In this document: in pieces, positions 1,678 through 23,188 of the stretch | Numbering within the stretch: the first letter of the stretch is position 1 | Layout of the letters: every line of letters begins with the position of its first letter | Program-made: the position numbers and the translations under genes | The notes under the pieces: generated by a model | What the model was told of the DNA's origin: nothing | Databases searched by the model: none | The model's input: the letters and a program-made list of their open reading frames with translations, nothing else | IMG/VR virus record: IMGVR_UViG_3300010885_062216 | Span: 1 to 32,144 of that record | DNA length: 32,144 nt | Direction: 5' to 3' (one strand) | Source of the DNA: a virus

Positions 1678-2799
1678 CTACTGAATCTGCTTCCACTGGC
1701 CGTTTCCAATCGACTGAAAGGTTCCTCGGCCAGGAATCGTCTTGATCACGGAAGCTGCGGATGAAGCGGTTCCTGAAACTGATGCACCCGATGCGGCAGC
1801 CGGTGAGTAGGAGAATTGCTTGAGCAGGTCCTGATTGACTCCCGGCATCCTTGCCACTTGCGCCTGCTTGGCGGCGATGGCGCGGTCGAGGATTGAGGAA
1901 TAGGAAGCAATCGCGTTGCGATAGTCATCCGGGGACTGGGAACGCTTCAGGCGGTTGACCGAGTCTTTAACAGCCAGTGCCTCCTGCTGAGTGATCCGGA
2001 AGTTTAGAGGACTACCAGGGACAGAGGACTCGTTCTTGATCTTGTTGATTCCATCGATCAGCTTTTGCCCATCGATCTGGTCGAAATATGATTTCAGGTT
2101 GCGCTGGGAGTCTGTGAGGCCGGGGTTGTACTGACCTGCTGCACCCACCATGGAGGGCAGCGCCGGGTGGTTGGCGATGGCCGTGAGGTTGTCGCGCTGG
2201 CTTTGGAGTTCCGTGATCTGGCCGGTGGCCGTATCCATGGCATTCTGTTTGGCGAGTTCCCCTGCAATGACTTTGGATTGCGACTCAGCGGTCTGTGCCT
2301 GCAGGTTCTGATCCTTCATCGGCGCGACGGAGATCTCGTGCTGCAGTTGTTGGATCTTGAGGCGCTTCTCGGGGTCTTGCTGTTTGAGTAATTCTTTCTG
2401 GTATTCGTTGTGAAGCTCCAAGAGCTTGAGCTTTTCCTGTACGGTGATTTGCTGACCACGTTCCAAACCATAGTTGTCTTTAGCCCATTGGTAAAATCCC
2501 ATGCCAGTTGGCGTGGAATTGTTAGGGGAGGCCGTAAATTCAGTTGCTGGTATACCCCCGAACGTATTGGCAGAGCCCGGGTTGGGCGGCAGGGCCAGCG
2601 GTTGGCCGTCGGGGCCGATGGCTTCAGGGTCGGCAATCGGGGCAGCCGTGCCCGGTGGCATCAGCAATCCACCTTGTTGTATCGGAGCGCTTCCAGGTTG
2701 AGCATTAAGCGCGGAAAGATCCCCACCAGTGATGACGGGGGTGGTGGCCTGGGCAAATTCCGCAGGATAACCAAGCAATGAAAGTTCCTCTGCGGTCAT
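1678..2799 (-). CDS. Coiled-coil virion protein, hypothetical (ejection/internal protein candidate)
   Basis: A 373-residue protein with a Pro/Gly-rich N-terminal third. A long charged helical region (about residues 110-220, with runs such as VQEKLKLLELHNEYQKELLK) probably forms a coiled coil. The Ser/Ala-rich C-terminus ends near GTFQSIGNGQWKQIQ. It begins three nucleotides after the stop of the gene before it and ends 12 nt before the next, so it is co-transcribed with the other left-end virion genes. I do not recognise a family. By analogy with podoviruses, proteins in this position are internal virion proteins ejected with the DNA. Confidence 0.75.
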   Translation of the reverse strand: MTAEELSLLGYPAEFAQATTPVITGGDLSALNAQPGSAPIQQGGLLMPPGTAAPIADPEAIGPDGQPLALPPNPGSANTFGGIPATEFTASPNNSTPTGMGFYQWAKDNYGLERGQQITVQEKLKLLELHNEYQKELLKQQDPEKRLKIQQLQHEISVAPMKDQNLQAQTAESQSKVIAGELAKQNAMDTATGQITELQSQRDNLTAIANHPALPSMVGAAGQYNPGLTDSQRNLKSYFDQIDGQKLIDGINKIKNESSVPGSPLNFRITQQEALAVKDSVNRLKRSQSPDDYRNAIASYSSILDRAIAAKQAQVARMPGVNQDLLKQFSYSPAAASGASVSGTASSAASVIKTIPGRGTFQSIGNGQWKQIQ

Positions 2800-2802
2800 G
2801 GA

Positions 2803-3198
2803 TCAAAAAGAGGTCATGCCCTTGTTCCCCTGATTGGCATCATTTTTCTGATTTAAGAAATTCTGTTTATAATCAAGCAGGGAATTCCGGTATTCAGAAT
2901 TCTGTTGGATACCTATCAGCGGCGCTAGTTGCTTCATGGCTCCAACCCTTGAGGATCGGTCCAAAGAAGAGTAATGGTCGTAGGCCATATCATCCATGAT
3001 GCCTAAATCATGTGCCAGTGAGGCAGTGCCATCAGCCGATTTCGTCTCTTGGTTCCGAGTGGCCAGCATTTGCAGCGCTTTGGAAATTCCATCACCCGCT
3101 TGAGAAATTCCACCAGAGATTCCTTGAGCATAAAGTAGATTGTTCTGGGCGGCAATCTGCCCGCTTCTATCCTGTTCTCCGGGGTTATATGCTTGCAT
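2803..3198 (-). CDS. Small hypothetical virion-region protein
   Basis: A 131-residue protein starting MQAYNPGEQDRSGQ, rich in Gln, Asn and Ser and without cysteine. It lies immediately downstream of tfuA (12-nt gap). A strong promoter-like site inside the 3' end of tfuA would start transcription only a few nucleotides before its ATG. Because it follows the ycaO-tfuA pair it could be considered as a modified substrate. However, it has no Cys, no obvious leader/core layout and ends in a plain KGMTSF, so an internal virion protein is more likely. Confidence 0.7.
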   Translation of the reverse strand: MQAYNPGEQDRSGQIAAQNNLLYAQGISGGISQAGDGISKALQMLATRNQETKSADGTASLAHDLGIMDDMAYDHYSSLDRSSRVGAMKQLAPLIGIQQNSEYRNSLLDYKQNFLNQKNDANQGNKGMTSF

Positions 3199-3207
3199 GA
3201 TGCGCTT

Positions 3208-3246
3208 ATTTTATGATTTTGGGGCAACCACCTTAATGGGGGGATT
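3208..3246 (-). promoter_or_regulatory. Late-type promoter inside the 3' end of tfuA
   Basis: On the minus strand, C6 (3243-3238) precedes TTAAGG (3236-3231), then exactly 17 nt, then TAAAAT (3213-3208). The ATG of the next gene follows 9 nt later at 3198. This matches the layout of four other sites in the window. The -10 element overlaps the tfuA stop codon. It would let the three left-most virion genes be expressed independently of ycaO-tfuA. This is a prediction from sequence pattern only. Confidence 0.6.
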
Positions 3247-4227
3247 GAATAGTTGGTGCCTTAGGGTCACGGGAATGAGTTCACACCCGCATGAGGCCGA
3301 GTCGAACCAGTTGCGTGCAGCTTGGATGACAGCTTCACGCACCGCAGCGCGCCCCCACTGTTCTTGGGTGATTCTATTGTTGATCATCCACTGATCGGCC
3401 AGCAACGTGTCCGTGATGCCAAGATTCCTCCAAAGCCGGGCGGAAGCCTCCACCACTTCCCTGTCTGTTGCTTTGATCCCAACCGCGCTGGCCAGTTCAA
3501 AAAGCATCATGGCATCGACAGCGGCATGGCGATCGGTGGCCATTTGCCAAGGTCGGATGGATCCGCTCTTGGCGGCTAGGATCGGCATCGATTCCAGCAC
3601 CGGAGAGGCGGTAGGTATTTCCGGTTGGGTTGTACGCCGGGGCGTGGCGGACAGTTTGATGGCTGCCATGGCGTCGATGGCTTTCTGGTCGACATAGTGC
3701 TTTCGTAACAGGGTAGCATCCGCGCCGATAAAATGGGTCAAAGCCGACCAGTTTCTTTCTGCATAGAAAATGGCCCTACACCGATCCAGCACGTTGTCTG
3801 AAATTTGGACACCGAGATACCCAAGCCGTTTTACTGTGGCGATCAGATTGACCATGGGAATCGTGATTGCTGTATATCCATCTTCAGCGTGCCGATGGGC
3901 AACTGCAACATCGCCATCATCTGTACAGGTTCCGTCCTCATACCATGTGGAAATCAATCCCGCGGATTCCATGCCATAGCGGCGGCACTCCACGGCCCGC
4001 AGGGCTCCGAGAGATCCAGCTCCGATGACGCGGCATCCTTTGGAGATCGCAAATAGGATCTCTTTGTGCCACGGCGCGAGGTGTTGGGAAAAGTAACCGT
4101 CGATCAAAATCAATGTATCCGGGCCCTCCATGGCCGCCGCAGCAATGTTGCCTTGCTCGGCGGGTGGGAGAACTTCGAGTCCGGATAGATCAAGGCCGAC
4201 TCCAGTGGGTCCAATAAAAATCTTCAT
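3211..4227 (-). CDS. tfuA: TfuA-like protein (YcaO partner)
   Basis: A 338-residue protein with the TfuA core in its first 120 residues: GPTG (6-9), PPAEQGN (21-27), IDGYF (42-46), WHKEIL (53-58), GAGSLGALRAVE (69-80) and an acidic DDGDVAVAH (103-111). The remaining 200 residues are helical and less conserved. TfuA proteins work with YcaO enzymes in thioamide formation, as in methanogen McrA glycine thioamidation and thiovarsolin-type peptides. They are proposed to supply or release sulfide, or to recruit YcaO. The ATG overlaps the ycaO stop as ATGA, so the pair is translationally coupled. Its 3' end doubles as a promoter. The family call is firm; the substrate is unknown. Confidence 0.93.
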   Translation of the reverse strand: MKIFIGPTGVGLDLSGLEVLPPAEQGNIAAAAMEGPDTLILIDGYFSQHLAPWHKEILFAISKGCRVIGAGSLGALRAVECRRYGMESAGLISTWYEDGTCTDDGDVAVAHRHAEDGYTAITIPMVNLIATVKRLGYLGVQISDNVLDRCRAIFYAERNWSALTHFIGADATLLRKHYVDQKAIDAMAAIKLSATPRRTTQPEIPTASPVLESMPILAAKSGSIRPWQMATDRHAAVDAMMLFELASAVGIKATDREVVEASARLWRNLGITDTLLADQWMINNRITQEQWGRAAVREAVIQAARNWFDSASCGCELIPVTLRHQLFNPPIKVVAPKS

Positions 4228-5387
4228 GACGTTCTCAGCGCACGGGATCCCAGGGCAGTGTATTTGTTCATATACCCCTCAAGGGTAGGGATTAGCACTC
4301 GAACAACAGAGCATGGATAGGGGTGGCTGAACTCATGGACTAGCGGCTCGGGAATTCCCGCTGATTCCAGTTTGGAGAGCAGGATATCGATGTCACCGGC
4401 AAAAGTCGCAGTGCTGGCATCAGGATGATGCGTGCTTGGCACTAGCACTCGAGAGGACATAAGGCGCGTAACTGTTTCCAGAGTGTCGCCCTTTTTAGCC
4501 ATGGTGTAATTTTCATGGGTGATATCGTCCCTGCTTCCTGCAATCCAGACCGCACGGGCTTGTACGGCCTCACAAATGGCGCGGCACTGCGCGACCACTG
4601 GATCGAGGTGGGCGGCATATCCCCGGTAGATCCCGGTGCCTCGCTCGTGGTCGCAAAGGTAGGCAATATAAGTAGGAACGCCGACATCACCGGTCACATC
4701 GCAAAGGATGGGCATAATGTCTTGGCTCCGAATGCGCTCGATGAGGTGGCCCAGCGTCTCGTCACGGATACTGTCCGTGTCTACCCGAGGAACCTCACCT
4801 GAGGTTTCCACTAAACAAGTAACCTGATCGCGCTCGATGACTTCGTATAATCCTCCAGCGATGGCTTCATCAATCGTGTTTCCGCTGGAAAGGCCATTGG
4901 ACGAAGAGGAAAAGCATGAAGCGATGATTGGTGAAATTGATTGGCGAGGAATGAGTCGCACCATTTCGGTCGGAACATGGCTAATGATCCCTGAACCAAT
5001 TCCGGAAACCGGGGTCCAGTGGCGGATCATGTGGGGAAGGTAGACGGACCCGCGCCACAGCGGGAGACGGGTTTCTGCGGCAACAACGTCCAGACCCGAA
5101 CCAAAAATTGACGGAACCGGAAACGCTTCGCCCACATGGCGTTCAAACCCTTCCATCATCGCGCTGCACAGCGCGGACGCCCTGGTAGCACCTTTACCTG
5201 AATCTACTGAAAGGATCAGTGCCGAGGGGCGGACGCATTGGGCAATTGGAATCCCAATTCGATCAAGTCCGGTAATTTCTGCGAGGCGCGTGATGCCCGC
5301 CGCGTGAAAATGAGGACGCAGTCGAGCGAGTGTCTCTTCCGGAGAGTTTGCGCGGTGCGCGCCCTCCAGACGGACTTTCAGCTCCAT
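4224..5387 (-). CDS. ycaO: YcaO-family peptide-backbone cyclodehydratase/thioamide synthetase
   Basis: A 387-residue full-length YcaO domain. The ATP/Mg-binding helices are intact: SALCSAMMEGFERH (71-84), SNGLSSGNTIDEAIAGGLYEVIERD (about 163-187) and QCRAICEAVQARAVWIAGSRDD (267-288), followed by the HPYPCSVVRVLIP strand (355-367). The family activates a peptide-bond carbonyl with ATP, so that a Cys/Ser/Thr side chain (azoline) or sulfide (thioamide) can attack it. The C-terminus ends GSRALRTS and lacks the Pro-rich tail common in azoline-forming members, which fits a TfuA-dependent thioamidation type. The start overlaps the upstream virion gene by 10 nt and the stop overlaps tfuA by 4 nt. No E1-like or dehydrogenase partner is nearby. 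Confidence 0.95.
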   Translation of the reverse strand: MELKVRLEGAHRANSPEETLARLRPHFHAAGITRLAEITGLDRIGIPIAQCVRPSALILSVDSGKGATRASALCSAMMEGFERHVGEAFPVPSIFGSGLDVVAAETRLPLWRGSVYLPHMIRHWTPVSGIGSGIISHVPTEMVRLIPRQSISPIIASCFSSSSNGLSSGNTIDEAIAGGLYEVIERDQVTCLVETSGEVPRVDTDSIRDETLGHLIERIRSQDIMPILCDVTGDVGVPTYIAYLCDHERGTGIYRGYAAHLDPVVAQCRAICEAVQARAVWIAGSRDDITHENYTMAKKGDTLETVTRLMSSRVLVPSTHHPDASTATFAGDIDILLSKLESAGIPEPLVHEFSHPYPCSVVRVLIPTLEGYMNKYTALGSRALRTS

Positions 5388-6478
5388 GCTGACTGGAGTG
5401 ATCCAAGGATCAAACGACCCGGGCGCTTAGCCCATTGGTTCCCCTCGATCCCTGCCGCAATCCATGGCCCATACTTGCAATAGGTACGAATAAAACGATC
5501 CGAGGCCGAGCGGAGCATTGCTCTCCGAAATTCTTTCCACCGGTCGGTGGCAGTGCCGAAAACCGCACGAGCCACCCAGCACGCTGCTGCTGCAGCGCCG
5601 ATCACGGCGCTTGCACCCATAGCCGCACCTTGCATTTGTCCATTTGCGGCGTTCCTTGAGGTTGCTAGGGATGTCTGATTGTTGTTGTAATTATTGTACA
5701 TTCCGGACGCCATATTGGTATTGTATGATGCCACATCACCGGCAAGCTGTTGAGCGTTTTGGAAGGCACCTCCAATCATCTGTCCGGACTGTCCTTGGAT
5801 CCCGCTGCCTAATTGTATTCCTTGGCCAAGCGCCCTTTGGTATGGGTCGAGATTCACCAAAGCATTAGCCCCGGCAAAGCCTAGGTTGGCCGCATTCTGG
5901 TAAGCGCCGCCAGCTTGACCGTAAAGGTTGGCCGTGTTGCCCATCATTCCCTGCGCGGCACCGGCATTGGAAAGTCGCTGTTGGTAGCGTTGCTGACCAT
6001 AGGAATAGCGGTTGAGGAGATCGGCAGCAGCCGCGGAGTTTCCGGTGCCTAAACCTCGCATGGAGTAGGCGCTGGTAGCTTGTTGGGAAGCGGCACGTTC
6101 CTCCTCGGGGTTAAGCGAAGTGCCAAGTGCCAGTTCGGAGGTAGCACGATCACCGGCCAACTTGGATAGGACTGAGGCTTGATCGCCTTGGGCACTAATT
6201 CTGTTCCCTGTATCGATCAGCGCGGAAGCACCCGATTTGTAGGTCTGATCGATGACTCCCTTGGCTTCTTTTGTATAGTCGTTGTTAAGATTACCAGCAA
6301 TCTTCCTGATCGTGCCAAGCTGGAGACCTTCAAGTTTTGGGTAAGCAGCAATTTGAGCAGCCAGCTGATCCCTGTATGACTGCGCGCCATACTTGGACGA
6401 TTCAGCCATGAGCTTTTCATAGTCGATTTGCTGCGGTGTCGATGGCTGTTGCTGATTTGTACCGGAAGATCCGCCCAT
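5378..6478 (-). CDS. Virion protein with a CFI-box-like C-terminal cysteine tail; candidate YcaO substrate
   Basis: A 366-residue protein. Residues 1-285 are rich in Gln, Asn, Gly, Ala and Tyr, as in phage internal or tail-associated proteins. A hydrophobic Ala-rich stretch (about 284-299) leads into a tail from Cys300: C-W-V-A-R-A-V-F-G, then WKEFRRAML and RTYCKYGPWIAAGI. This resembles the C-F-I-A-x-A-x-Y-G C-terminal box known from many bacterial proteins and, from memory, similar C-W-V-A-R tails in other phage proteins. Cys300 and Cys334 are the only cysteines. The stop lies 10 nt inside ycaO. Modification by YcaO/TfuA is inference, since similar tails probably exist in phages without ycaO. 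Confidence 0.8.
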   Translation of the reverse strand: MGGSSGTNQQQPSTPQQIDYEKLMAESSKYGAQSYRDQLAAQIAAYPKLEGLQLGTIRKIAGNLNNDYTKEAKGVIDQTYKSGASALIDTGNRISAQGDQASVLSKLAGDRATSELALGTSLNPEEERAASQQATSAYSMRGLGTGNSAAAADLLNRYSYGQQRYQQRLSNAGAAQGMMGNTANLYGQAGGAYQNAANLGFAGANALVNLDPYQRALGQGIQLGSGIQGQSGQMIGGAFQNAQQLAGDVASYNTNMASGMYNNYNNNQTSLATSRNAANGQMQGAAMGASAVIGAAAAACWVARAVFGTATDRWKEFRRAMLRSASDRFIRTYCKYGPWIAAGIEGNQWAKRPGRLILGSLQSAWS

Positions 6479-9993: not shown

Positions 9994-10653
9994 TTAAGTG
10001 AAGAGCGGCGTGACGCGGCCGTGCCAGTTGGCTCCGGTGGGAGAGATGACGGAATCCAAGTGCCATACATCCAGCGGGAGCATGATTCGGCGGTTCTCGT
10101 CCCAGAGCAGCGTCAGCTCGAGGTCACCGTGGCCGTTGGTCAGCGCGGGCGGGTGGCCGTCGGGCCTGCCGTTTGATTTGTGAAAAAGTTGGAAGAAACC
10201 TATCGGAACCGGCACTCCGTCGACCGTTTGGTGTCGCATGAGCGGGAAGTCCGTGCGGCCTGCCTCCAGTTCAGCCAGTTGTTCCGATCCTACGACCCGC
10301 CGACGGCTGCAGCCGTGAATGCTTTCCTGGTCTAGAGGGAACGGTGAGAAATCTTTCGGCAGGAGGATGTCGGCATCGAGGAGCAGCACCCAACCCTCGG
10401 GCAAGGTACGGAGCACCGTGTCCAAAGCGCGTCCCTTGTCGAACGGTATGCGAGCTCCTTCATGGAATTCGTTGGAAATCACCGGATCAATTCCATTCTG
10501 GCGGCAGACCTCCCGCGTCTGGGAATCCTCCGGGGTCGTGATGACCGTGACCGATTCCAAAAGGGACAGGGCGCGGGGAAGTGTGACCGTCAGGTAGTCG
10601 TGGTAGAGCACGCTGACCATCACGGCGCGGATTGGTAGTTTCTGCGTGCTCAT
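9994..10653 (-). CDS. Glycosyltransferase-like protein (GT-A fold, family 2-like)
   Basis: A 219-residue soluble protein. RAVMVSVLYHDYLTVTLPRAL (9-29) looks like the nucleotide-binding first strand and helix, and PEGWVLLLDADILLP (85-99) holds the DAD (93-95) expected to bind metal and nucleotide sugar. A histidine near the end (DVWHLDS) is typical of GT-A enzymes. It sits between the tail nozzle and endolysin genes, overlapping the latter by ATGA, so it is expressed late. Donor and acceptor are unknown. A virion protein or a host surface glycan are both possible. Confidence 0.75.
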   Translation of the reverse strand: MSTQKLPIRAVMVSVLYHDYLTVTLPRALSLLESVTVITTPEDSQTREVCRQNGIDPVISNEFHEGARIPFDKGRALDTVLRTLPEGWVLLLDADILLPKDFSPFPLDQESIHGCSRRRVVGSEQLAELEAGRTDFPLMRHQTVDGVPVPIGFFQLFHKSNGRPDGHPPALTNGHGDLELTLLWDENRRIMLPLDVWHLDSVISPTGANWHGRVTPLFT

Positions 10654-12706: not shown

Positions 12707-14185
12707 TTAAGGCAATGACAATCCTTGACCGAGGGTGTTCTTGTAGACGGAATAAAATGAGGACACTTGAGTGGCAGAAGATGCTGCACGAATGATAAAC
12801 ACAAAAGATACTGTTCCAGAAAAAACGCTTATATTTTGTTGTCTTCCAAATTTAGTAGCATCAAATATGCTAGACATGGATGTTGGAGTTCCTCCGCTTG
12901 CTTTTAATGTAGTGTTTAAATATGCAGCAGTTCCATTGCTTGAACCAGACCACATATTAAATGTATTTGCACTAGCCGCTGCTGGTGCATTAATTCTTCC
13001 AGCACCAGTAGTTAAGCAATCAAAGTATATGTTTCCATCTGAATATGGAGACCACAACCCACCAACCTGACTACCAACCGTTGATTCAATGCTTAACCCA
13101 CGGTTTTGTGCAGAGACTGAATTTACCAAGTGAACTGATCCAGCAAATAACCCTGAGCTAAAATCACTCATTGTCGGAAATGTCAACCACCCGACATTGT
13201 TTGGAATTGCTATTCCTTTGCTTTCCCATGAAGCAGCAGTCAAACCAGATACTAGAGTTGCCGTTGAACTTGAAAGTCCTCCCAGATTGTATGCAGACAA
13301 TGTTCCTACATTTTGACTGCTCCTCAAAGGCCAACACACCATACTGCTCCACAGTCCAAGTCCCTTGACCTGCTTTACAAACGAGTTGATCAGTTGCCGA
13401 GCCGAAGCAGTTGAAGTGGCTATGGGGCTAAGAACAGTTGCCGTGACTGTTCCGTTGTTTGTAAGTGTATTTGATCCTGCGGAATCTGCCGTGACGCTGG
13501 TTTGATTCAATGCCCAGTAACTTTGAATATTTGAAGTTAATCCTGCGGAAACAATACTAGAATAAGTGAGGCCAATACCTTTATTGTAGAGGGTTGTAAT
13601 CTCTGTTGCACTTAATGCTCTTTTCCAAATGGCACATTGCGACAGTAAACCTAACCACAAGCCGTTTCCTGCAACATTCCCATATTGTCCAATCGAAAAA
13701 TCCGAAGTTGTTTGGTTTGCCACCCCAGAAGGCAAAGTTGCTGCTGATCCCGATGCGGTGCCGTTAATATAAAACTGCAAAGATAGGCTTGAAACAGTAA
13801 CGGCACAATGTACCCACTGGTTGAGTGGTATTTTAGCAGTGGTGTTAGTTACAAACCACGACCCATTGTAACGAGCAAACTTTAGTTCTCCGGTAGGTAA
13901 AATCGAAAACGAATAATCCCCTGCCGATGCATTTGATTTTGCAAAGATGATTCTATCTCCAGCAGCATAAGAGGTTAAATTTACCCATGCTGAAAATGTA
14001 AAATCAGTACCCCCTAAATATAGAGTAGTATTTGAAGTAACACTCAAATACTGACTCGTACCGTTAAAACTTGCAGCGTTGTCGTAGGAAGTCGGAGTGA
14101 CTGTTCCTGATCCAATCCCTGCCGAGGCAAAGTATGCCTGGGCGTCCGGGTCAGTTCCTGCCCGTCTAATGTAGGGGGCGGGCAT
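12707..14185 (-). CDS. LamG/concanavalin-like jelly-roll protein, probable receptor- or glycan-binding
   Basis: A 492-residue protein. Residues about 38-215 form a LamG-type domain: SFNGTSQYLSVTSN, DFTFSAWVNLTSY, NQWVHCAVTVSSLSLQFYING and CAIWKRALSATEITTLYNKG follow the usual strand order. The last 230 residues (LINSFVKQVKGLGLWSSMVCWPLRSSQN onward) are another beta-rich domain of the kind found in phage tail-associated proteins. The gene is clearly more AT-rich than its neighbours, suggesting recent exchange, as is common for host-range genes. It starts 8 nt after the preceding gene. Confidence 0.8.
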   Translation of the reverse strand: MPAPYIRRAGTDPDAQAYFASAGIGSGTVTPTSYDNAASFNGTSQYLSVTSNTTLYLGGTDFTFSAWVNLTSYAAGDRIIFAKSNASAGDYSFSILPTGELKFARYNGSWFVTNTTAKIPLNQWVHCAVTVSSLSLQFYINGTASGSAATLPSGVANQTTSDFSIGQYGNVAGNGLWLGLLSQCAIWKRALSATEITTLYNKGIGLTYSSIVSAGLTSNIQSYWALNQTSVTADSAGSNTLTNNGTVTATVLSPIATSTASARQLINSFVKQVKGLGLWSSMVCWPLRSSQNVGTLSAYNLGGLSSSTATLVSGLTAASWESKGIAIPNNVGWLTFPTMSDFSSGLFAGSVHLVNSVSAQNRGLSIESTVGSQVGGLWSPYSDGNIYFDCLTTGAGRINAPAAASANTFNMWSGSSNGTAAYLNTTLKASGGTPTSMSSIFDATKFGRQQNISVFSGTVSFVFIIRAASSATQVSSFYSVYKNTLGQGLSLP

Positions 14186-21344: not shown

Positions 21345-22271
21345 TCAGTAGCAACCGCCCGGATGTTGGGTTGGGCGAAGGATGTCCCCCTCGACGTAGA
21401 GCAGCTCCGGCTCAGCGGTCACGGCATAGCGGATACAGTCAAGCGGGTCCTTGGTGGCGGCCTTATTTCCATCCGCACCCGTCCACTCCTTCAGGCTGTA
21501 GATGACATTGGCGCAGTCCTTGGAGACAAAGAGACGCGGCTCGTTCCCGGTGCCGATTGGCTTGTCGGGATCGTAGGCCAGGGCATTGTTGATCAAATCG
21601 ACCCCCTCGTCGATGGCCCTGCCCGAGGTGGGGCTGAACTCCATGCCGATATCGGCGCATTCATCCAAAAGCGTGGTGACGCCATCCCTGAGGATGGTGG
21701 CGCTGGAAGCGTAGCGGCTATCCATGAGGCGTTCGCGTATGACCTCACCCCCCTCGAGTCGGGCGATCTCCTCTTTGTACTCTTGCAGGCCCCACCCAAA
21801 AGTTTTCTGGGCATCACCCATGTCACCGTCGGCCTTGCTGGCACTCGGCACCGCCCAAGGGCCGACTACTCCAACCCCGGTAATATAGCGGTTGCTGTCA
21901 GGCCATTCCCGGTAGACGAAGAGCCTTCCTCGGATGTCGACCCTGACCCAGATCATGAACCAGTTCCGACCAGAACAGGGGTCGACGATCTGGTAGTTGC
22001 TCCCATCCTTGGGAATGGATTCCGGATCGATAACATGCACGTCGTCGCGGAACCGTGGGAAACGGCTGACTCGTGACTTTGTGGCCACGCCGTAGGCGCG
22101 GCAAAGGATAGTCTCCTTGTTCTTCCCCTCGAGCACGACCTTTAGTGAAGGGTAGTTGCCGTATGGATTTTCCGCGGTGTGAAAATAGATGATTGCGGCA
22201 TTCCGCATGACCGGCTGCTGGATCAGGGGGACTTTCTCATACCCGATTATGCGGCGCGTCAAATTGTCCAT
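21345..22271 (-). CDS. terL-C: Terminase large subunit, C-terminal nuclease part (split gene)
   Basis: A 308-residue protein. VDPCSGRNWFMIWVRVD (96-112) gives the first RNase H-like catalytic Asp (D97). The C-terminal SLKEWTGADGNKAATKDPLDCIRYAV holds the late acidic residues. The first 20 residues (MDNLTRRIIGYEKVPLIQQP) correspond to the linker that normally follows the ATPase domain, so this is the back half of a large terminase. It starts inside a 65-nt tandem duplication that also contains the end of the ATPase ORF. It should cut concatemeric DNA and needs the ATPase half. Confidence 0.83.
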   Translation of the reverse strand: MDNLTRRIIGYEKVPLIQQPVMRNAAIIYFHTAENPYGNYPSLKVVLEGKNKETILCRAYGVATKSRVSRFPRFRDDVHVIDPESIPKDGSNYQIVDPCSGRNWFMIWVRVDIRGRLFVYREWPDSNRYITGVGVVGPWAVPSASKADGDMGDAQKTFGWGLQEYKEEIARLEGGEVIRERLMDSRYASSATILRDGVTTLLDECADIGMEFSPTSGRAIDEGVDLINNALAYDPDKPIGTGNEPRLFVSKDCANVIYSLKEWTGADGNKAATKDPLDCIRYAVTAEPELLYVEGDILRPTQHPGGCY

Positions 22272-22356
22272 GACAGATTACGCAGCCTCCCGAGGACTTT
22301 CTCATACCCGATTATGCGGCGCGTAAAATTGTCCATGACAGATTACGCAACCTCCC
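22230..22356. repeat. Imperfect 65-nt tandem duplication at the terminase split
   Basis: Two 62-nt copies (22230-22291 and 22295-22356) with a 65-nt period differ at only two positions: GTCAAATT versus GTAAAATT, and CGCAGCC versus CGCAACC. Each copy carries the same TAA and the same ATGGACAATTT start context on the minus strand. Because 65 is not a multiple of three, the duplication shifts the frame. The sequence differences argue against a simple assembly artefact. Confidence 0.9.
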
Positions 22357-23188
22357 TGATTAACTCGTCGGGTTCCTCCACCACGGAAACCTCGGTGATG
22401 GGCGGGCCGTATTTCGGAAGGAGTTCTGCATCGGTCGATTCGGTAGTGACGGCCCCGTTCAGGACGCTGGCCACGGTCGGGGTGTAACCGGCCACGGGGG
22501 TGAATGTGATGTGGAGGATCCCGTTTCGGGTAAGGAGACGATACCGAAGGGCCTCCAGCCAATCGGGGGTCACCAGCTCGTCCGCCCAAGCACAGTCGAG
22601 TTCCGCCCCTTCCACAGATTTCACATCCATTGAGTAAAACTTAAAGACGCACATCGAGCCATTCGGAAGCACCAGCTTGTTCTCGGTGAATCCTCCGCTC
22701 ACCGAATAGTTGATTTTTGTAGTTGTTCCCTGGCGCAGCTTTCCGGTCTCGGTCTTGTACTCCGGCGGGAGGTATTTGTAGACGAGGCCCTGTTGGTTTT
22801 CGATGGAGGAAGCCTCGGTCGACTGGAGGCACCAAACCTTTGCAAAATCCTTGGCAATCATTAATTCCACAATGCGCTTTGCCGCCCGCTCCGATTTTCC
22901 AGCTCGGTTACCGCCTAGGTTCCACTCCTCAATCACGCCGACGGGGAATTTCTCCCGCAACCGCTGGCGTTCCCGGTCGGCCCTAGCCCAGGAGACCGGC
23001 TCGTGGCCATAACGCAAAGGGTCGGCCTTTTCCAGTCGAATCCCCTCCTCCCGCTGGGTGATGTAGGCCGCAAGCTGCTCGCGGGTAAAGATCCGCTTCC
23101 TATCCCCCACCCTTGCGGCAATCGTGCCGTCGGCGTTGCGGCCCAGCATCTCGACAAAAGGATGTACCGGGTGCGGAGTCTGTATCAT
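22343..23188 (-). CDS. terL-N: Terminase large subunit, N-terminal ATPase part (split gene)
   Basis: A 281-residue protein. Walker A is GGNRAGKSE (92-100) and Walker B is ELDCAWADEL (196-205), followed by the coupling motif region LLTRNGILHITFTPVAGYTP. It ends ELIREVA* inside the tandem duplication, whereas related proteins would continue into the nuclease domain. With one duplicate copy removed, the frame continues into the nuclease half, interrupted only by this TAA. It should power DNA packaging at the portal. Confidence 0.87.
   Translation of the reverse strand: MIQTPHPVHPFVEMLGRNADGTIAARVGDRKRIFTREQLAAYITQREEGIRLEKADPLRYGHEPVSWARADRERQRLREKFPVGVIEEWNLGGNRAGKSERAAKRIVELMIAKDFAKVWCLQSTEASSIENQQGLVYKYLPPEYKTETGKLRQGTTTKINYSVSGGFTENKLVLPNGSMCVFKFYSMDVKSVEGAELDCAWADELVTPDWLEALRYRLLTRNGILHITFTPVAGYTPTVASVLNGAVTTESTDAELLPKYGPPITEVSVVEEPDELIREVA

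Follow-up and report, generated by a model that had tools for sequence, protein, structure and literature searches.

A putative YcaO-TfuA thioamidation pair coupled to a CFI-box-like virion protein domain in environmental phages

In a 32,144-base IMG/VR virus record, analysed over its whole length and referred to here as the window, we identified a complete ycaO-tfuA gene pair within a late virion operon, directly behind a gene whose product ends in a conserved domain resembling the NCBIfam family CFI-box-CTERM (NF041770). On balance we favour, with somewhat better than even confidence, the explanation that YcaO and TfuA install a backbone thioamide in this C-terminal domain of the upstream virion protein. 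The domain, called the box in the following, is the likely target of the enzymes because box and enzymes come and go together in evolution. Both the enzyme family and its chemistry are already known; what appears to be new, as far as we checked, is the occurrence in a phage virion context, together with the candidate substrate. The initial annotation had called phage virion-linked thioamidation undescribed, and indeed no earlier report of a phage-borne, virion-linked YcaO-TfuA pair was found in our literature search, nor any YcaO relative among 50,697 GenBank phage records at an E-value of 1e-5.

Organization of the locus

The genes of the locus lie on the minus strand and are listed in Table 1. 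The ycaO and tfuA genes overlap by ATGA, and the start of ycaO overlaps the 3' end of the upstream virion gene, including its stop codon, by 10 nt. Neighboring genes encode virion proteins, among them an SU10-type major capsid protein, tail proteins and a member of the P22-type 'released upon infection' family. A full-length pair with intact YcaO ATP-binding motifs and TfuA core had been described before, and coordinates, Pfam matches and alignment agree with this; both overlaps and the virion-operon setting are likewise borne out by the coordinates and neighbor annotations. The CFI-box-like end of the upstream gene had been missed. A search with the portal protein matched only phages without a named host.

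Table 1. Features of the ycaO-tfuA locus in the window.
Feature	Coordinates	Strand	Description
373-aa ejection-type protein	1678..2799	-	phrog_2534 'released from the phage upon host infection', E 1.6e-5; L079 homologue E 7e-19
131-aa protein, next operon gene	2803..3198	-	homologue follows this site in L079 (34% to L079:7212-7610)
tfuA	3211..4227	-	338 aa, complete; predicted partner delivering sulfide to YcaO
ycaO	4224..5387	-	387 aa, complete; predicted ATP-dependent backbone thioamide synthase
366-aa virion protein with C-terminal box	5378..6478	-	ejection-cluster position, between tail genes and ejection-type genes
Variant CFI-box-like C-terminal domain (AAACWVARAVFGTATDRWKEFRRAML...)	5381..5590	-	proposed substrate or recognition domain
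A-V-F-G, end of box helix 1	5555..5566	-	Phe 5558-5560, Gly 5555-5557; candidate modified site, weakest-supported guess

Family assignment of YcaO and TfuA

The window YcaO matches Pfam family PF02624 above the cut-off and over the full profile (1-325/325, E 2e-54). Inspection of an alignment for lost ATP-binding residues had been proposed earlier; across 15 phage YcaO sequences the ATP/Mg motifs SGKGAT, MMEGFERH, SNGLSSGN, GLYEVIERD and HLDP..AQ.RA..E..Q.R are intact and largely invariant. The AF2 model (pLDDT 84.5) reaches a TM score of 0.83 to the M. jannaschii YcaO structure 6peu, and the best PDB sequence match is MJ1094 (E 1.9e-39), so that domain, motifs and fold all place the protein in the YcaO superfamily. 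The best NCBIfam model is TIGR03266, the YcaO of McrA-glycine thioamidation, with 186 bits, which is below the equivalog cut-off of 365. In the tree, which had also been suggested in the initial annotation, the 15 phage sequences group in a single clade (100/99) within the TfuA-linked part, separate from LynD and MusD, in a set that contained no macroamidine enzymes. The YcaO of L159, a very distant phage described below, forms a long branch of uncertain placement. The assignment of the window YcaO to the TfuA-linked (thioamide) branch, away from the azoline enzymes, is thus supported at the sequence level, and an azoline-type YcaO was ruled out by the tree together with the model scores. Relatives found in a scan of cellular genomes are all distant, the best one being from Micromonospora andamanensis (34%).

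The tfuA product belongs to the TfuA family, with 108 bits against a cut-off of 30 for PF07812 (E 2.4e-31); with NF033432 it scores 112 bits (E 2.2e-32) and does not reach the equivalog cut-off of 235. Its PDB relative is 6xp8 (E 1.7e-19). In 13 related loci a ThiS-like protein with a C-terminal GG (PF02597, E 3.5e-8) is encoded between ycaO and tfuA, a gene that is absent from the window. For thioamide YcaOs of this kind, TfuA together with a thiocarboxylated ThiS homologue tends to be the route of sulfur delivery (PMC13063428). The TfuA protein, the tree branch and the ThiS-like protein in the 13 loci all speak for a predicted function in sulfur transfer, and the idea of a phage-borne, virion-linked pair of the thioamide type gains support from family models, structure match and tree.

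The loci with a ThiS/MoaD-like carrier include L016 (7149-7412), L009, L062 and ten more. The distance between ycaO and tfuA is longer in L009, L036, L062 and L064, and in L009 and L062 this gap includes a further ORF of 72-102 aa. The initial statement that there is no room for a precursor gene holds for the window; in the 13 related loci the gap contains the ThiS-like carrier. A free-standing precursor peptide was considered and rejected, as the small ORFs in these 13 gaps are ThiS-like and no precursor-like ORF is conserved beside ycaO-tfuA.

The CFI-box-like domain

The box is a conserved domain of about 70 residues at the C-terminus of the 366-aa virion protein. With NF041770 the window box scores 18.4 bits (E 0.0014), below the curated 40-bit cut-off; since canonical phage boxes score below this cut-off as well, we use the wording 'CFI-box-like'. 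The structure model of the box consists of four helices (pLDDT 88). Canonical boxes carry the motif CWVAREVYG, whereas the variant linked to YcaO reads CW[VIL]AR[AET][ACTV][FY]G. Both types share C-W-x-A-R, W15 and R19. They differ mainly at positions 6-13 (EVYGExNP in canonical boxes, A[AC]FGTxTT in YcaO-linked ones), a stretch that the model places at the end of helix 1 and in the loop leading to helix 2. The Cys-Trp of the box is invariant, with the Cys equally invariant in boxes without YcaO, and a run of Ala precedes the YcaO-linked boxes. In McrA, the thioglycine follows Phe in LGFF-G-FD (PMC5589413). By analogy, the [FY]-G that is conserved in the loop between helices 1 and 2, perhaps as part of an A-x-F-G loop, could be the modified site; this is a weak guess, because the box of L066 is without Phe-Gly, for which reason the box Gly was not accepted as a proven site.

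The canonical tail CWVAREVYG..NP.W..FR is very common at the C-terminus of virion-operon proteins in environmental phages (L178-L256; HMO-2011 GU557055.1 ORF25, L168:7102-9222). One segment of an uncultured phage protein with the annotation 'intramolecular chaperone auto-processing' is matched by the box model, too.

Box and YcaO in related phages

A scan of IMG/VR with the window YcaO as query, a search of related phages that the initial annotation had recommended, yielded 70 loci, and in 63 of them the gene directly upstream of ycaO ends in the same box. The order box-ycaO-tfuA is also found in the 67-kb phage L159, where the box is 41%, YcaO 27% and TfuA 31% identical and the remaining virion protein is unalignable. 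Among the exceptions, L045, L054 and L060 have a differing neighborhood. The enzyme genes of L054 are not next to the virion gene, and the contig carries a box of the canonical type elsewhere, the only box found when the whole contigs of the exceptions were searched. In the near-identical L046, L048 and L050 and in L069, ycaO-tfuA follows a virion protein at the same position but without a box, which shows that the enzymes can persist without it. A small virion-operon protein with the conserved sequence SP[FY]GNDG.[IV]P.YSSIP...CLPC..CGNS (L048:4547-4792, L069:2028-2315) may be an alternative partner in this box-less subgroup.

Canonical-type boxes gave at least 595 matches, and none of 50 contigs tested carried a YcaO. 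A general link between CFI box and TfuA in cells was dismissed: they occur in 15 and 13 of 398 bacterial genomes, with one overlap, and are unlinked, and no box was found beside 19 bacterial TfuA loci.

Box type and enzymes change together at one site

The protein most similar to the upstream one (L079, 75% identical) aligns with residues 3-294 only. This phage has neither the box nor ycaO-tfuA and carries a PAPS-reductase-like gene in their place. Searches with the box-less bodies of the virion protein gave 137 and 96 hits (groups I and II), of which the 80 with the best scores were taken in each case and then freed of duplicates and truncated contigs. Among these unique best-scoring bodies, group I contains 29 with no box and no YcaO, 1 with a canonical box and no YcaO, and 26 with the variant box and YcaO; for group II the respective numbers are 31, 15 and 10. 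Taken together, a YcaO accompanies none of the 60 box-less proteins, adjoins none of the 16 with a canonical box and is present with all 36 (plus the window) that end in the variant box, and not a single discordant case exists among the unique bodies of both groups (best 80 of 137 and 80 of 96 hits). When 112 bodies, that of the window among them, were arranged in a tree, the variant box changed at least 10 times, and YcaO changed with it in 10 out of 10 independent contrasts (sign test, p=0.002).

A similar picture was obtained in a count at the site itself, for which at least 1.5 kb of downstream sequence was required and duplicates were kept. A PAPS-reductase-like gene, called by the motif SGGKDS and confirmed with PF01507 for five of these genes, is located close downstream in 50 of 59 box-less sites; all 18 canonical-box sites contain neither this gene nor YcaO, and YcaO is present at all 40 variant-box sites. 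No box, usually with the PAPS-reductase-like gene, canonical box without enzyme, and variant box with YcaO are mutually exclusive states at one site in this set. The PAPS-reductase-like gene (L079:5932-6777 and 49 other loci) begins where the box-less virion gene ends or close to that point, and represents an unexplained second sulfur-related enzyme.

Regarding the target, the initial annotation had considered the phage's own virion, a host protein or a small peptide. Co-occurrence, co-variation and dN/dS point to the virion, and more narrowly to the box of the adjacent virion protein. Purifying selection acts on the box much as it does on the enzyme, with a median dN/dS of 0.18 for the box, 0.158 for ycaO and 0.45 for the body (pairs not independent).

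Proposed mechanism and alternative explanations

If the box is the substrate, YcaO and TfuA would be made late in infection, the box protein and YcaO being produced from overlapping genes. YcaO would then activate a backbone amide in the box with ATP, and TfuA would release the sulfide, which in some relatives would come from a thiocarboxylated ThiS-like carrier encoded by the phage and in the window presumably from a carrier of the host. A separate precursor would be unnecessary because the target domain is fused to the virion protein. After packing of the modified protein into the virion, the thioamide (amide O to S) would make the tail stiffer or shield it, perhaps to help assembly or the entry of the protein into the cell envelope when DNA is ejected. 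A role of the box protein in assembly or ejection is plausible because the gene order resembles podovirus ejection clusters.

Several observations speak against the box as substrate, namely the four enzyme loci without a box, the separate enzymes and canonical box of L054, the canonical boxes in hundreds of phages without YcaO, the missing Phe-Gly in L066 and the unlinked occurrence of CFI box and TfuA in the 398 bacterial genomes. The box could be a passenger, because ycaO overlaps the 3' end of its gene: YcaO-TfuA might help infection by acting on a protein of the host, such as a ribosomal protein or metabolic enzyme, with the box co-carried by recombination through the overlap. Short gene overlaps in many loci, the box-less enzyme-bearing phages and L054 would fit this, as would the precedent of the large cellular proteins uL16 and McrA as YcaO targets (PMC13063428, PMC5589413). 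We nevertheless consider it unlikely in view of the enzyme-like constraint on the box, its own variant sequence when linked to YcaO and its recurrence with a 27%-identical YcaO in the otherwise unalignable virion protein of L159; moreover, no loss of the box was seen in the 37 unique YcaO phages of groups I and II, among the best-scoring hits.

Systems based on YcaO yield several types of product, and their recognition and modification sites are often separate. The enzymes might hence form an azoline on the conserved Cys or an amidine, or the box might only serve as a docking site for modification elsewhere in the virion protein, e.g. in the preceding Gly/Ala-rich segment. Although the invariant Cys-Trp and the Ala run before YcaO-linked boxes would agree with such a scheme, TfuA, ThiS and the tree favor thioamide chemistry and the Cys is just as invariant in YcaO-less boxes, which makes it distinctly improbable. 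That the pair is cargo at a swap site, making a small thioamidated peptide (RiPP) whose precursor is encoded elsewhere, by the phage or by its host, appears very improbable: most bacterial ycaO-tfuA pairs are regarded as RiPP enzymes (PMC8120280) and a PAPS-reductase-like gene at the same site in relatives is expected of a cargo slot, but the genes have no conserved precursor-like ORF beside them, and the presence of the enzymes tracks the box type, contrary to what would be expected of cargo.

Building on thioamidation of the box, a broader proposal, which we put at slightly below an even chance, is that viruses thioamidate the protein backbone of their own virions. In this view, a transferable cassette of variant box, ycaO and tfuA, sometimes with thiS, would replace either a canonical box without enzyme or the absence of a box with a PAPS-reductase-like enzyme at one ejection-cluster site, giving three interchangeable finishes of one virion protein, two of them sulfur-linked.

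Comparison with known systems

Thioamidation of McrA glycine by the methanogen YcaO-TfuA (MJ1094/6pe3; PMC5589413) shares with the phage pair the two enzymes, a large protein as target (here a candidate) and an aromatic-Gly motif, and it provides the best-matching NCBIfam model and solved structure for the phage YcaO. The phage pair differs in its virion operon, its non-McrA target, scores below the equivalog cut-offs and a separate clade. The E. coli YcaO acts on uL16 (PMC13063428) and thus, like the candidate case here, on a whole protein; it has no TfuA, and the phage YcaO scores only 36.7 bits with the uL16 family model. Adjacent ycaO-tfuA genes, sometimes with ThiS, are shared with the clusters of thioamidated RiPPs such as thioviridamide and thiovarsolin (PMC6511847, PMC8120280). 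Unlike in those, no small precursor gene was found beside the phage enzymes, the upstream gene being that of the box virion protein, to which the candidate target is fused.

The YcaO-linked box resembles NF041770 and canonical phage boxes (e.g. HMO-2011 ADW08438) in its C-terminal position, in CW.AR...G and W..(F/Y)R and in the expected fold, and differs in its sub-cut-off score and at positions 6-13, bacterial boxes being unlinked to TfuA. The gene order, with tail genes followed by the box protein, a 131-aa protein, a phrog_2534 protein and, in relatives, a giant protein, resembles that of podovirus ejection clusters (T7 gp14-15-16, P22 gp7-20-16; PMC8954989), in which tail genes precede small protein(s), a mid-size and a giant protein. 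In contrast to these clusters, a backbone-modifying enzyme pair is inserted in the window and its box protein has no sequence match to any known ejection family.

Only two thioamidated proteins, McrA and uL16, have been characterised, and the role of the thioamide is debated in both (PMC13063428). If true, thioamidation of the box would be the first known case both of such a modification in a virus particle and of a sulfur-modified backbone in a virus. The phages would offer a compact model for how YcaO-TfuA selects a folded protein and what the thioamide does, as a single operon encodes the enzyme, its partner, in some cases a sulfur carrier, and the candidate substrate of 70 residues, and natural relatives lack the enzymes. 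The widespread, unexplained CFI-box-like phage tail would thereby gain a testable connection.

Other features of the window

Between the endolysin and a tail gene lies a 219-aa ORF (9994-10653, minus strand) that resembles nucleotide-sugar glycosyltransferases (LLLDADILLP) and has no Pfam match. A 492-aa protein (12707-14185, minus strand) contains a laminin-G/concanavalin-like domain (PF13385, E 2e-30) and is possibly a receptor-binding virion protein. The ORFs 22343-23188 and 21345-22271 resemble two halves of a large terminase, which could mean that the gene is disrupted, that the assembly is faulty or that the terminase is split; between them a 63-nt direct repeat (97%) was noted at 22229-22291 and 22294-22356.
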